Part shown: one piece after another, positions 2,994-18,790 of the stretch
Layout: every line of letters starts with the position of its first letter
Numbering within the stretch: the first letter of the stretch is position 1
NCBI GenBank assembly: GCA_902793325.1
Contig: CADBCY010000027.1
Location: 1-39,393, forward strand
Origin: an uncultured Eubacteriales bacterium
GTDB taxonomy: Bacteria > Bacillota > Clostridia > Christensenellales > Aristaeellaceae
DNA length: 39,393 bases
Direction: 5' to 3'
The notes under the pieces: generated by a model
The model's input: the letters and a program-made list of their open reading frames with translations, nothing else
The model's database searches: none
Told to the model about the DNA's origin: nothing
Program-made: the position numbers and the translations under genes

Positions 2994-4022
2994 ATGAAGA
3001 AGCTCGTTTCTCTGCTGATCGTGCTGGTGCTGGCCCTCGGCCTCGTGTCCGCCGCGTGCGCGGAAGAACCGGTGAAGGTTTGCATCGTGTTCTCCGGCCT
3101 GCTGGGCGACAAGTCCTACAACGACTCCTGCATGGAGGGCGCCAACCGCGCCGTCGAGGACTTCGGCATTGAGCTGAAGACCCTGGAGGGCACCGAGGCC
3201 ACCGAGTGGGAGCAGAACTTCCTGTTCGCCTGCGAAGAGGGCTACGACCTGGTCATCTGCTCCTCCTCCAACTTCGAGGAGTACATGAAGGAGCACTGCG
3301 CCAACTATCCCGACGTGAAGTTCGCCATCATCGACACCACCGTGCCCGGCGACAACATCTGCTCCATCTCCTTCGCCCAGAACCAGGGCTCCTTCCTGGC
3401 CGGCGCCTGCGCCGCGCTGCTGACGCAGCACACCGAGATCCCGGGCATCAACGAGGACAAGATCATCGGCTGGGTCGGCGGCATGGACATCCCGGTGCTG
3501 CACGACTTCTTCGTCGGCTACGAGCAGGGCGCGAAGTACATCGATCCCGACATCCAGGTGCTGCAGTCCTTTGCCGGCACGTGGGTCGATCCGCTGAAGG
3601 GCAAGGAGCTGACCCTGAGCCAGTATGACCTGGGCGCCGACGTCGTCATGAACGTCGCCTCCGGCACCGGCAACGGCGTCCTCGAGGGCGCCAAGGAAGC
3701 CGGCCACTTCGCCATCGGCGTCGACCTGAACCAGGATGCCGACCAGCCCGGCGCCGTGTTCACCTCCATGGTGAAGCGCGTGGATACCGCCTGCTACCTG
3801 CTGATCGAATCCGTGGTGAAGGACACCTTCGCCGGCGGCACCACCGAGTACCTCGACCTGGCCAAGGGCGGCGTCAGCCTGACCGACATGGCCGTGATCC
3901 GCGAGGCCCTGGGCGACCAGTTCCCGGAGGACATCCCCGAGAAGATCGCCGAGCTGAACGACAAGATCGTCTCCGGCGAGATCGTCGTCGAGAACTACGA
4001 GGGCTTTGGTCCCGCCAAGTAA
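2994..4022 (+). CDS. BMP-family ABC transporter substrate-binding protein
   Basis: The 342-residue secreted protein has a signal peptide (Lys-Lys, hydrophobic stretch, then SAACAEEP around residues 20-27). Cleavage by signal peptidase I after ACA fits best. The Cys at 23 makes a lipoprotein form possible, but the lipobox is poor. The mature part resembles the BMP/Med (PnrA, YufN) family, with a GLLGDKSYNDSCMEGANRA start, the EQNFLFACEEGYDLVI region and SFAQNQGSFLAGACAALLT. This family usually binds purine nucleosides for import. It lies directly before the matching ATPase and permeases and follows a strong AAGGAGG. The hairpin after its stop may raise its mRNA level relative to the membrane components. 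The exact substrate is not visible. Confidence 0.93.
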   Translation: MKKLVSLLIVLVLALGLVSAACAEEPVKVCIVFSGLLGDKSYNDSCMEGANRAVEDFGIELKTLEGTEATEWEQNFLFACEEGYDLVICSSSNFEEYMKEHCANYPDVKFAIIDTTVPGDNICSISFAQNQGSFLAGACAALLTQHTEIPGINEDKIIGWVGGMDIPVLHDFFVGYEQGAKYIDPDIQVLQSFAGTWVDPLKGKELTLSQYDLGADVVMNVASGTGNGVLEGAKEAGHFAIGVDLNQDADQPGAVFTSMVKRVDTACYLLIESVVKDTFAGGTTEYLDLAKGGVSLTDMAVIREALGDQFPEDIPEKIAELNDKIVSGEIVVENYEGFGPAK

Positions 4023-14827: not shown

Positions 14828-15077
14828 GCGATGAGGGAGAGAGTACCCCGGCACGCCACCCCCGAGAGAGCCGCGCCATGGCTGGAAGCGCGGCGGGCGC
14901 GCGGCGCGGGCGAAGTTCACTCCGGAGCATCCGGGCTGAAGGAAGGCGCTTCTGCGTAGGTCCGGACGGGTTCATTTCCCGTTACCAGGATGAGAGGCCG
15001 GCGGTCGCGCCGGTGAATATGGGTGGTACCGCGGAGCATGTACGGCTTCGCCCCTGGCATGGGGCGGAGCTTTTTTC
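14828..15077 (+). promoter_or_regulatory. T-box leader, phenylalanine specifier, before pheST
   Basis: This is a tRNA-sensing T-box riboswitch. Stem I opens with GATGAGGGAGAGAGTACC (K-turn region). The specifier is TTC (14916-14918) in the context CGAAG-TTC-ACTCC, which decodes Phe. The T-box core GGGTGGTACCGCGG (15021-15034) can pair with the uncharged tRNA acceptor end. The terminator stem GCTTCGCCCC (15045-15054) against GGGGCGGAGC (15061-15070) is followed by TTTTTTC. Uncharged tRNA-Phe should favour the antiterminator and permit pheST transcription. The open frame running through this region from 14878 is not a gene. Confidence 0.95.
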
Positions 15078-15124: not shown

Positions 15125-16231
15125 ATGGAAAAGACATTGCAGGAGATCCGCGAGCGGGTGCTCCGGAACATCGAGGAAGCCCGGGCCAGCAGCAGTCTGG
15201 AGCAGATTCGCGTGGGCATACTGGGCAAAAAGGGCGAGCTGACGGGCATCCTCCGCGGCATGGGCAAGCTCCCGCCCGAGGAGCGCCCGAAGATGGGCCA
15301 GATGGTCAACGACGTGCGCGCCGCCCTGGAGGCGAAGCTGGCGGAGCGCGCGGCGGAGCTGGCGGAGAAGGAAAAGGCCGCGCGCCTGGCGGAGGAGGCC
15401 ATCGACGTCACCCTGCCCGGCCCCGAGCGCGCCGCCGGCAGCCTGCACCCGATGAACATCGCGCTTTCGCGGATGGTGGAGATCTTCGTGGGCATGGGCT
15501 ACGAGGTCGTGGAGGGCCCAGAGGTGGAGTACGACCACTACAACTTCGAGCTTCTGAACCTGCCGAAGAACCACCCCGCGCGGGACGCCCAGGACACGTT
15601 CTACGTCGACGACAACATCGTGCTGCGTACCCACACCTCCCCGGTGCAGGCCCGCATCATGACCACCCGCAAGCCGCCCATCCGCATCGTGTGCCCGGGC
15701 CGCGTGTACCGCGCCGACGAGGCCGACGCCACGCACAGCCCGGTGTTCCACCAGATGGAGGGCCTGGTGATCGACGAGAACATCACCATGGGCGATTTGA
15801 AGGGCACGCTGGACGAGTTCGCCCGGCAGATGTTCGGCGAGGGCATCCGCACCCGCTTCCGCCCGTCGTTTTTCCCGTTCACCGAGCCCTCCGCCGAGGT
15901 GGACCTGACCTGCGCGAACTGCCGCGGCAAGGGAGTTTTGCCTTTGGCAAAACTCTCCCAGGCAGAGCCTGGGATGGCGACCTCACAAATCAAAGATTTG
16001 GGAGGCGCCACCTGTGGCTGCCGCATGTGCAAGGGCACTGGCTGGATCGAGGTGCTGGGCGCGGGCATGGTGAACCCCAAGGTGCTGGAGATGTGCGGCA
16101 TCGATTCCCACAAGTACTCCGGCTTCGCCTTCGGCATGGGCGTGGAGCGCATGACGCTGCTGAAATACAACATCCCGAACCTGCGCTACCTGTACGAAAA
16201 CGACCTGCGTTTCCTGACGCAGTACAGATAA
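15125..16231 (+). CDS. pheS: phenylalanyl-tRNA synthetase alpha subunit with a 28-aa in-frame insertion
   Basis: The 368-residue class II synthetase subunit charges tRNA-Phe together with PheT. It has an N-terminal coiled-coil arm (residues 1-85), HPMNIALSRMVEIF, motif 2 around RIVCPGRVYRADEADATHSPVFHQMEGL, and motif 3 GFAFGMGVERMTLLKYNI. In relatives the CxxC pairs form a continuous run (CxxCxGKG-CxxCKGTGW). Here the first pair is CANC and the second CRMC, with 28 extra residues (Val271-Gly298) between. The extra 84 bp at 15935-16018 are lower in GC and consist of hairpins. The frame is kept and all downstream motifs are intact, so the gene is probably functional. ATG 15125 follows a GGAG Shine-Dalgarno. 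Confidence 0.95.
   Translation: MEKTLQEIRERVLRNIEEARASSSLEQIRVGILGKKGELTGILRGMGKLPPEERPKMGQMVNDVRAALEAKLAERAAELAEKEKAARLAEEAIDVTLPGPERAAGSLHPMNIALSRMVEIFVGMGYEVVEGPEVEYDHYNFELLNLPKNHPARDAQDTFYVDDNIVLRTHTSPVQARIMTTRKPPIRIVCPGRVYRADEADATHSPVFHQMEGLVIDENITMGDLKGTLDEFARQMFGEGIRTRFRPSFFPFTEPSAEVDLTCANCRGKGVLPLAKLSQAEPGMATSQIKDLGGATCGCRMCKGTGWIEVLGAGMVNPKVLEMCGIDSHKYSGFAFGMGVERMTLLKYNIPNLRYLYENDLRFLTQYR
15931..16018 (+). repeat. palindromic element inserted in frame in pheS
   Basis: Three hairpins stand in series. (1) GGGAGTTTTGCC (15931-15942) pairs with 15946-15959 around a TTT loop, with a 2-nt bulge. (2) CCCAGGC-AGA-GCCTGGG (15957-15973) is a perfect 7-bp stem. (3) 15975-15991 pairs with 15995-16010 around an AAA loop: 15 pairs, one mismatch (15985/16001) and one bulge (15980). 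The 84 bp relative to normal pheS (15935-16018) is 56% G+C, below its surroundings, and uses TTG, AAA and GTT codons rare in the flanks. It encodes 28 residues without stop. This resembles selfish palindromic elements known to be translated inside genes, such as the Rickettsia palindromic elements. No second copy was seen in this window. Confidence 0.8.
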
Positions 16232-16250: not shown

Positions 16251-18641
16251 ATGAAAGTGCCGATGAAATGGCTGAAGGAATATGTGGACGTCAACATGAC
16301 GGCGGAGGAATACGCCGCCCGCATGGTGATGACCGGCACCGGCGTCGAGGGCATCGACCGGACCGGCGACCAGTTTGACAAGGTCGTGGTGGGCATGGTG
16401 GTATCCTGCGTGCCCCATCCCAACTCCGATCACCTGCACGTGTGCATGGTGGACGTGGGCGGCGAGGAGCCCATCCAGATCGTGTGCGGCGCGCCCAACG
16501 TGCGCGCCGGCATGCGGGTGGCGGCGGCGCTGGACGGCGCGCACCTGCCGGGGGGCAAGATCAAGAAGGGCAAGCTGCGCGGCGAGCTGAGCTGCGGCAT
16601 GCTGTGCTCCGGCCCCGAGTTGGACGTGCCCGCCGGCCTGTACCCCCACATCGGCGACGAGGGCATCCTGGAGATCTTCGAGGACGTGGCCCCCGGCACC
16701 GACGTGAAGGAGGTCTTTGGCCTGGGCGACGACGTCGTGGACTTCGAGATCCTCGCCAACCGCCCGGACTGCCTGAGCGTGTGGGGCCTGGCGCGGGAGT
16801 CGAGCGCGGTGCTGGAGGAGCACTTCGTGATGCCGGAGATCGCCGTGGAGGAGACCGGCGAGGGCTGCTTCGACGACTACGCGAAGGTGCAGGTGCAGGA
16901 CGATGCGCTGTGCCCGCGGTACTGCGCCAGGGTCGTCACCGACGTGAAGATCGGCCCGTCCCCCAAGTGGATGCGCGAGTACCTGTACGGCGCGGGCGTG
17001 CGGCCCATCAACAACATCGTGGACATCACCAACTTCGTCATGCTGGAGACCGGCCACCCGATGCACGCCTTTGACCTCAGCAAGGTGAAGGAGCAGACCA
17101 TCGTGGTGCGCCGCGCCCGCCCCGGCGAGCACCTGGTGACGCTGGACGGCAAGGAGCACGTGCTGGACGAGACGATGCTGGTCATCGCCGACAACGAGAA
17201 CGCCACAGGCCTGGCGGGCATCATGGGCGGCGAGGAGTCGGAGATCGTGGGCGACACCGCGAGCGTGCTGTTCGAGTGCGCCGCCTTCGAGCGCGCCAAC
17301 AACCGCGTCACCGCGCGCAAGCTGGGCATTCGCACCGAGTCCAGCGGCCGCTTTGAGAAGGGCGTCTGCCCCGCCACCGCCATGGAGGCCCTGAACCGGG
17401 CCTGCATGCTGGTGAACATGCTGGAGTGCGGCAGGGTCGTGCCCGGCGCGTTCGACCACTATCCCAATCCCGCCCGGCCGGTGGAGATCGACGCCAGCGT
17501 GCGGCGCATCTGCCGCCGCATCGGCGTGGACGTGCCCGCCGAGGATATGGAGGATATCCTGAACCGGCTGTACATCGACACCACCGTCGCCGGCGACAGC
17601 CTGCACTGCGAGATTCCCGCCTTCCGCCAGGACATGGAGGGCGAGGCGGACATCTCCGAGGAAGTGCTGCGCATGTACGGCTACGACCACATCCCCTCCA
17701 CGCTGATGAACGCCGTGACCATGCCCGGCTTCCGCGGCGCGCGCGCCGTGTTTGAAGACCGGGTGAAGGCCGCGCTGGTGGGCATGGATCTCTACGAGGT
17801 GCTGAACTACTCCTTCATCAGCCCGAAGTGGGTGGAGAACCTGGGCCTTCCCGAGGACGACGCCCGCCGCAGCGCCGTGGTGATCCGCAACCCGCTGGGC
17901 GAGGATACGTCCGTGATGCGCACCACGCTCGTGCCCAGCATGCTGTACACCGTGGCGAACAACCTGAACCGCGGCAACGCCGAGGGCCGGCTGTTCGAGC
18001 TCTCCAAGGTGTTCCTGCCCGCGGCGAAGCCCGGCGACCTGCCCGAGGAGAAGCACGCGCTGTGCCTGGCCGTGTTCGGCGAGGACGCGGATTTCTACAC
18101 GCTGAAGAACGTCGTGGTGGGCCTGTTCGCCAAGTTCGGCGTGACCGCGCAGATCGAGGCCGCGGGCGACGGCTACTACCATCCCGGCCGCAAGGCCGTC
18201 ATGCGCGCGGGCGGGGTCAGGCTGGCCGCGCTGGGCGAGATCCACCCGGACATCGCGGAGAAGTTCGACCTCAACCGCCGCGTGTACCTGGCCGAGATCG
18301 ACCTCGACGCGCTGATGCCGCTCGAGAAGGATTTCTACGGCATCAAGCCCCTGCCGAAGTTCCCCGCCGTCAGCCGCGACATCGCTCTGGTGGTGGACGA
18401 AACCGTCGGCGCGGGCACGATGATGGACTGCATCCGCGAGGTGGCCGCGAAGACGCTGGAGGACGTGAAGCTGTTCGACATCTACCGCGGGGACAAGCTG
18501 GGCAAGGGCAAAAAGTCCGTGGCCTACGCCATCACCCTGCGCGCCGCCGACCGCACGCTCACCGACGAGGAGATCACCGGCACCATGAACAAGGTGCTGG
18601 ACGCGCTCCGGAATCGCTTCGGCGCGGAGCTGCGCGCGTAA
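16251..18641 (+). CDS. pheT: phenylalanyl-tRNA synthetase beta subunit
   Basis: The 796-residue PheT begins MKVPMKWLKEYVDVNMTAEE. The N-terminal tRNA-binding (EMAP/OB) domain includes VVSCVPHPNSDHLHVCMVDVG and VCGAPNVRAG. The B3/B4 editing domain covers about residues 200-390 (NIVDITNFVMLETGHPMHAFD; the region up to ESSGRFEKGV). B5 and catalytic-like core modules follow (DEVLRMYGYDHIP-type segment EEVLRMYGYDHIPSTLMN), then the C-terminal anticodon-binding FDX-ACB domain (FPAVSRDIALVVD to TLTDEEI). It starts 19 nt after pheS and shares its T-box control. The length is usual for bacterial PheT. I see nothing broken. Confidence 0.97.
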   Translation: MKVPMKWLKEYVDVNMTAEEYAARMVMTGTGVEGIDRTGDQFDKVVVGMVVSCVPHPNSDHLHVCMVDVGGEEPIQIVCGAPNVRAGMRVAAALDGAHLPGGKIKKGKLRGELSCGMLCSGPELDVPAGLYPHIGDEGILEIFEDVAPGTDVKEVFGLGDDVVDFEILANRPDCLSVWGLARESSAVLEEHFVMPEIAVEETGEGCFDDYAKVQVQDDALCPRYCARVVTDVKIGPSPKWMREYLYGAGVRPINNIVDITNFVMLETGHPMHAFDLSKVKEQTIVVRRARPGEHLVTLDGKEHVLDETMLVIADNENATGLAGIMGGEESEIVGDTASVLFECAAFERANNRVTARKLGIRTESSGRFEKGVCPATAMEALNRACMLVNMLECGRVVPGAFDHYPNPARPVEIDASVRRICRRIGVDVPAEDMEDILNRLYIDTTVAGDSLHCEIPAFRQDMEGEADISEEVLRMYGYDHIPSTLMNAVTMPGFRGARAVFEDRVKAALVGMDLYEVLNYSFISPKWVENLGLPEDDARRSAVVIRNPLGEDTSVMRTTLVPSMLYTVANNLNRGNAEGRLFELSKVFLPAAKPGDLPEEKHALCLAVFGEDADFYTLKNVVVGLFAKFGVTAQIEAAGDGYYHPGRKAVMRAGGVRLAALGEIHPDIAEKFDLNRRVYLAEIDLDALMPLEKDFYGIKPLPKFPAVSRDIALVVDETVGAGTMMDCIREVAAKTLEDVKLFDIYRGDKLGKGKKSVAYAITLRAADRTLTDEEITGTMNKVLDALRNRFGAELRA

Positions 18642-18710: not shown

Positions 18711-18790
18711 TGCCGGTGGCCGGACTCGAACCGGCATGGTTTCCCGCCGCATTTTGAGTGCGGTGCGTCTGCCAATTCCGCCACACCGGC
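18711..18790 (-). tRNA. tRNA-Leu (anticodon CAA)
   Basis: The minus-strand sequence folds into a class II tRNA. It has acceptor GCCGGTG/CACCGGC with discriminator A, a GCGGAATTGGCAGACGC D-arm, and an anticodon stem CCGCA/TGCGG around loop CTCAAAA (anticodon CAA, reading UUG). The variable arm is short for class II (about 11 nt), and the T-arm is GCCGG-TTCGAGT-CCGGC. The length is 80 nt without CCA, which is not encoded. Anticodon and arms fit leucine. Confidence 0.95.

Follow-up and report, generated by a model that had tools for sequence, protein, structure and literature searches.

An in-frame triple-hairpin repeat in pheS and its dispersed family in a Clostridia genus

The pheS insert and its empty relatives

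The window analysed here, a stretch of 39,393 nucleotides forming contig C27 of its genome, carries pheS on the plus strand at 15125..16231 (368 codons and a stop codon), followed on the same strand by a gene at 16251..18641 which, from gene order and general knowledge, we take to be pheT. Just past this putative pheT lies a tRNA gene on the minus strand (18711-18790). Upstream of pheS, at 15022-15034, stands GGTGGTACCGCGG, which resembles a T-box antiterminator motif; Rfam called no T-box there at the gathering score. Across the window tRNA was the sole Rfam family reaching that score, weaker matches looking like chance, and a search of 10 loci with copies of the element described below gave no gathering-score match, so that membership of a known RNA family was rejected.

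Within pheS an 83 nt unit running from AGG to CACC (15930..16012, plus strand) folds into three hairpins with no spacer between them. Hairpin 1 (15933..15955) has a perfect 10 bp stem with arms at 15933-15942 and 15946-15955, hairpin 2 (15956..15974) a perfect 8 bp stem with arms at 15956-15963 and 15967-15974, and hairpin 3 (15975..16010) a long stem interrupted by one bulged A and one mismatch; all three have a 3 nt loop. In the window fold the outer AGG (15930..15932) is the partner of 16011..16013, the last base of which lies beyond the 83 nt model, and because the start of the unit pairs in this way with its end, the whole constitutes a closed four-way junction. The closing helix comprises three pairs in this fold and two in the covariance model, which scores the element at 96.4 bits (E 4.1e-18 in the window). 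The RNA fold of 15920-16030 has an energy of -62.5 kcal/mol (z -6.06) and the DNA fold of 15929-16013 a z-score of -8.76, with none of 200 dinucleotide shuffles as low in either case; together with the covariation reported below these values rule out chance hairpins as the origin of the element. A preliminary description of the locus had recognised the three consecutive hairpins, which the folds and arm positions bear out, but had set the ends at 15931-16018, one base off on the left and six on the right. Coordinates apart, the remainder of that description holds. The net insertion is 84 nt or 28 codons (the 83 nt unit and one adjoining base), and both the open reading frame, free of stops and frameshifts, and the alignment to homologues confirm the excess of 28 residues it had reported. 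The lower GC content and unusual codons are likewise present, at 55.4% GC against 66.0% in the remainder of pheS and with a codon score that ranks third lowest among 341 windows of 28 codons.

In the protein the insert corresponds to residues 270-297 of the alignment. Residues 12-270 of the query match residues 11-268 of the solved chain 4p71_C and residues 298-368 match 268-338, with nothing missing on either side of the insert, and in a 15-row PheS alignment the 12 rows without the element are 28 residues shorter at that point. Confidence in the AlphaFold structure predicted for PheS is low (mean pLDDT 56, and below 50 for residues 260-309), and the putative placement of the insert in a loop therefore rests on the homologues. 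Among the 27 same-genus relatives searched, two (G001 and G007) carry the insert, 24 have rows in which the two parts of PheS meet without it, and one (G017) gave no PheS match; the genomes are largely metagenome bins, and some of this presence or absence may reflect binning error. Relatives lacking the insert had been put forward as support for a mobile element, and these 24, with the 12 of 15 alignment rows, rule out a clade-wide part of PheS. Across the genus the empty alleles read GGx-GAR (or GCG)-GGx and the filled ones GGC-AAGG...CACC-NNN-GGC.

A structure-conserved repeat family

The pheS element belongs to a repeat family that is dispersed in this Clostridia genus and conserved in structure. 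A PheS search gave weak matches near residues 266-300 which proved to be further copies of the element, and a DNA search with one such copy gave matches in 19 of 60 genomes, that of the window included, all of them from this genus. The covariance model at E 1e-4 matched 27 of the 28 genus genomes (again including that of the window), in line with the earlier expectation of many copies at unrelated loci. The richest were G006 with 79 matches, G008 with 38 and G007 with 35, out of 150 candidates scored per genome and the best matches listed; these are matches rather than checked copies, and since the palindromic form lets one copy be matched on each of the two strands, as was seen, the counts may exceed the number of copies. 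The genome of the window (G000; 3.23 Mb, 67 contigs) has five strong and two weak matches, among which the pheS copy is the one seen in a conserved gene, besides a weak match on contig C4. This last (G000:C4:52603-52666, L115; E 0.005) sits in an uninterrupted coding frame, presumably that of an ABC transporter ATPase, and may be either a decayed copy or chance.

In broader samples searched at E 1e-6, three of 297 genomes in an order sample were matched, two from this genus and one from another genus of the family, and one of 398 in a phylum sample, which was the genome of the window; these scans considered 15 and 11 candidates per genome, respectively, under stricter filters that still returned the five matches of the latter genome. 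A pattern drawn from hairpin 3 found at least 119 stretches in named genomes and, among the 80 of these listed, 79 come from bins titled Clostridiales or Clostridia and one from Eubacteriales bacterium OttesenSCG-928-N13; the RUG prefix of many of these genomes presumably denotes rumen bins. Several copies in G006 (L069-L081) are nested in a second palindromic repeat with the ends CCTTCCCCTTGAGGGGAAGGTGGC ... GCCGGATGAGGTG or close variants, a nesting which suggests layered repeat families.

The conservation of structure was assessed in a MAFFT alignment of 25 copies, made up of 23 of 29 collected copies and two added by hand, one of which starts 3 nt early; rows containing N or lacking a near-perfect hairpin 1 had been left out of the collection. 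Pairing is found in 98.0% of 845 cells, a figure that for hairpin 1 leans towards pairing because a near-perfect hairpin 1 was required when most starts were set, while hairpins 2 and 3 are free of that selection, although the anchor pattern did require parts of the hairpin 3 sequence. Changes on both sides are seen in 21 of the 34 pairs, covariation reaches 0.441 against a shuffled mean of 0.139 with none of 500 shuffles as high, and shifting the partner by one column lowers pairing to 43-45%. The unit measures 82-86 nt in 24 copies and 79 in the remaining one, and its ends in the alignment are AGG (or AG) and CACC or CACT. The sequences of hairpins 1 and 2 differ greatly between copies with their pairing kept, while hairpin 3 is the least variable in sequence, retaining CAAATC...GATTTG in 21 of the 25 copies. 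The three forward frames of the element are open in 12, 22 and 13 copies respectively.

Host genes, insertion sites and same-site copies

Seven proteins carry the insert in frame and match solved homologues on both sides of it: PheS, GltB, PurB, GlgP, Lon, a phosphohexomutase-like protein and GltD. Pfam supports the identities of the proteins that host in-frame copies. The net gain is 28 residues in PheS, GltB, PurB, GlgP and Lon, 28 in GltD when compared with its relatives, and 30, by a weak alignment, in the phosphohexomutase-like protein. One frame of the element is used by pheS, gltB and purB and another frame, judged on the shared 3' part, by gltD, lon and the phosphohexomutase-like gene. 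Empty and filled sites are found side by side in genomes of the genus, absence in relatives having been checked for the in-frame sites of pheS and gltD. A further in-frame copy, in G027, has a host protein without a Pfam match. A wider survey of flanks took in 80 and 41 rows from two collections, which share duplicates and cover 56 of the 112 matches of one listing; flanks that were open and coding-like on one strand were seen in 14 of the 80 rows and, counting cases in and out of frame alike, in six of the 41, rows by contig ends or runs of N being beyond judgement and some of the open-flank rows (e.g. L186, L125 and L037 on the plus strand) being probably spurious.

Other copies break genes. 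A conserved gene of G001, which we take to be DUF362-like, holds two copies at sites that are empty in relatives, the first reading CTGCGC-AAGG...CACC-CCGGCG against an empty CTGCGC-CCGGCG. At this one clean site with empty relatives there is no target duplication of two bases or more, a duplication of one base being possible, and small local changes are present at other insertion sites. Copies also disrupt transposase-like genes and one reductase-like gene, presumably an IS21-like and an IS256-like transposase and an aldo/keto reductase. An out-of-frame copy occupies the same site in G005:C24 (L247) and G018:C26 (L270), in divergent backgrounds, within a gene that has a PHROG match to phosphoadenosine phosphosulfate (PAPS) reductase and of which both halves are open; G005 also possesses an uninterrupted paralogue. 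Many copies lack a frame that runs through and some break genes, for which reason insertion is probably undirected; the mixture of in-frame and gene-breaking copies is a prediction of undirected insertion followed by selection. In essential genes in-frame, stop-free insertions alone would survive, and the length of about 84 nt, with two or more open frames in many copies, would make such insertions frequent. PheS would in this way have gained a stretch, presumably tolerated, between its two CxxC pairs.

The three pheS carriers (G000, G001 and G007) share both site and subfamily. Compared with the copy in the window, the insert of G007 is 99% and that of G001 93% identical, while the next full-length copy in the genus stands at 83% and partial matches at no more than 87%. 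With the insert excluded, the AU test rejects the three carriers as one clade (p 8.6e-10) as well as G000 and G007 as a clade (p 9.1e-7), in a PheS tree of 28 rows without G003 (split over contigs), G017 (no match), G028 and G057; an earlier tree had 30 rows and was without G003 and G017. The immediate flanks are not common to the carriers, the first mismatch lying five bases to the left and one or two to the right. The inserts of G000 and G007 share an identical 27-residue core, and those of G000 and G001 differ at six of 84 positions, two in loops and four in stems. The four stem changes form two complete compensatory pairs, with a chance probability of 7e-4, and two of the four alter an amino acid. 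Outside the stems one or two of 15 positions differ, approximately the rate of the flanks, so that an old insertion with constrained stems and subsequent losses is also possible.

At gltD, the copies of G006:C45 and G007:C47 lie in an identical tract of 116 bases (17+83+16), and 95 of the 600 bases flanking it differ. In the gltD tree (24 rows, without G024, G011 on a short contig, and G012, G013 and G021, which gave no match) the AU test did not reject a single clade of the three carriers (p 0.074) or of G006 and G007 (p 0.16), and none of 200 bootstrap trees united the three carriers. The copy of G001 shows stem changes without compensation. One simple insertion does not account for pheS and gltD copies that occupy a common site in genomes without a common grouping. 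The copies may have re-entered the site specifically, have been exchanged as very short tracts, or go back to an old insertion that was lost exactly several times. From the pheS carriers not forming one clade and the gltD identity of G006 and G007 inside differing flanks, a homing-like behaviour can tentatively be drawn, in which a site-bound copy passes from species to species into the same codon of essential genes, takes along hardly any or none of the DNA around it, and has its stems restored to pairing after insertion even where this alters the protein; we regard this as possible but on balance doubtful.

Mobility, rival origins and known systems

We consider it very probable that the pheS segment represents a family of palindromic repeats in this genus that are mobile but non-autonomous. 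The element would be mobilised in trans and, as its stems are conserved more than its sequence, the machinery responsible probably recognises the folded strand; insertion would proceed without a visible target duplication, as at the one clean site. No mobilising enzyme emerged from the analysis, in which Y1_Tnp (PF01797) was the family searched for. Phages may act as carriers, given copies on two contigs of a viral collection, the scans of which gave no further contig with copies. One (L235) has terminase, portal and minor-head family matches and copies at 1038-1117, 1243-1325 and 3045-3137, one of them within the portal gene's open frame, before the stretch that matches portal. The other (L236) has a copy at 1311-1388, antisense inside an open frame of 310 codons, downstream of which lies what we take to be a major capsid protein.

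Several other origins have to be weighed against a mobile family of this kind. The insert could be an old functional addition to PheS, whether a clade-specific part or a regulatory mRNA structure, that is kept by selection and does not move, an account to which the identical core of G000 and G007 and the two loop changes and two compensatory pairs between G000 and G001 would lend themselves. It is nevertheless extremely improbable, as 24 of 27 same-genus relatives do without the insert and the element recurs at numerous unrelated sites and, in different frames, in six or more further conserved genes; because neither a peptide nor the pheS mRNA explains the existence of copies so dispersed, it is already refuted as a complete account. 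That ribosome skipping or RNA excision, in the manner of translational bypass, keeps the element silent in genes is very unlikely. The PAPS-reductase-like gene of G005 and G018, open in both halves around an out-of-frame copy, would suit such a process, but bypass would not need the insert to be in frame and open as it is in seven well-matched genes, further copies that are out of frame or contain stops seem simply to have broken their genes, and G005 has its intact paralogue.

The two remaining candidates concern the class of mobile element. A classical MITE, derived from a DDE insertion sequence by deletion and moved by the transposase of that sequence via terminal inverted repeats, would agree in size and dispersal and with the copies inside what we take to be insertion-sequence transposase genes; with a terminal helix of just 2-3 bp, a clean site devoid of a target duplication of two or more bases, and no parent element seen in an analysis whose transposase search covered PF01797, we judge this origin unlikely. 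Membership of the REP/RAYT systems, in which hairpins are moved by a Y1 (HUH) tyrosine transposase, appears more unlikely again. Such repeats are also small hairpin units, some of them intragenic, and 16 of the 28 genomes, including that of G007, encode Y1_Tnp (PF01797) proteins. Against this, the unit is one of about 83 nt with three stems, the 25 copies show no GTAG or CGTC at their ends and their flanks no constant tag, and PF01797 gave no match in G006 (79 covariance-model matches), G008 (38) or G000, which are incomplete bins; the presence of Y1_Tnp thus does not track the number of matches, and a Y1 transposase as sole mover is doubtful.

Palindromic insertions lying in frame within conserved genes are best known from Rickettsia, their usual setting being reduced genomes under weak selection. 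The mobile repeat family favoured here displays the same habit in a genus of gut Clostridia whose genomes measure 2.4-3.9 Mb and in which empty and filled sites make its origin, its movement and its cost to proteins testable. Its strong covariation also makes it well suited to asking how stems stay paired within coding sequence; a mobilising enzyme that recognises them, selection by the host on the RNA, and templated hairpin correction in replication are candidate answers. A search of titles and the opening lines of abstracts in open-licence PubMed Central found no description of elements of this type from Clostridia, a result that speaks only weakly for their absence from the literature.

Among other known systems, the double-hairpin elements of fungal mitochondria are mentioned in PMC7218506 as very short mobile hairpin units; they are organellar and have, by their name, two hairpins, whereas the Clostridia element is bacterial and has three. 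The REPs (GTAG and CGTC families, with RAYT) resemble it as hairpin repeats that in part lie inside genes. They are given as 20-40 bp long. As outlined in PMC3733652, they bear a tetranucleotide tag at one end and have intragenic members in several species, including recB of X. campestris and X. oryzae at approximately the same site; the Clostridia element differs from this outline as a triple unit without a tag, the abundance of which does not follow Y1 transposase genes. ERIC, RUP and Correia/NEMIS, MITEs that are likewise non-autonomous and of similar size, are listed in PMC2229807 as duplicating their target and ending in inverted repeats of 7-24 bp, and some MITEs provide open frames fused to genes. 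The element described here has a closing helix of 2-3 bp in place of terminal inverted repeats of at least 7 bp, and no duplication of two or more bases at the one clean site. Closest in behaviour are the Rickettsia palindromic elements (RPEs), described as stem-loops of 105-146 bp with 12 bp terminal repeats (PMC2229807) which reside in frame within proteins of Rickettsia, where one enzyme that was tested kept its activity (PMC2229807, PMC10969869). Like them and their Wolbachia counterparts, the Clostridia element is small, dispersed and strongly paired, and occurs both between genes and in frame within conserved ones. None of the 25 copies, however, is a stem-loop of 105-146 bp with terminal repeats of about 12 bp, and the unit of about 83 nt, a four-way junction of three hairpins with a closing helix of 2-3 bp, is set apart by that RPE description. 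The comparison with RPEs in the preliminary description accordingly stands for behaviour, in dispersal and in-frame residence in conserved genes; in its architecture and its lack of a long terminal repeat the Clostridia element is of a different family. The evidence thus supports an in-frame palindromic repeat family in Clostridia that combines RPE-like behaviour with an architecture of its own.
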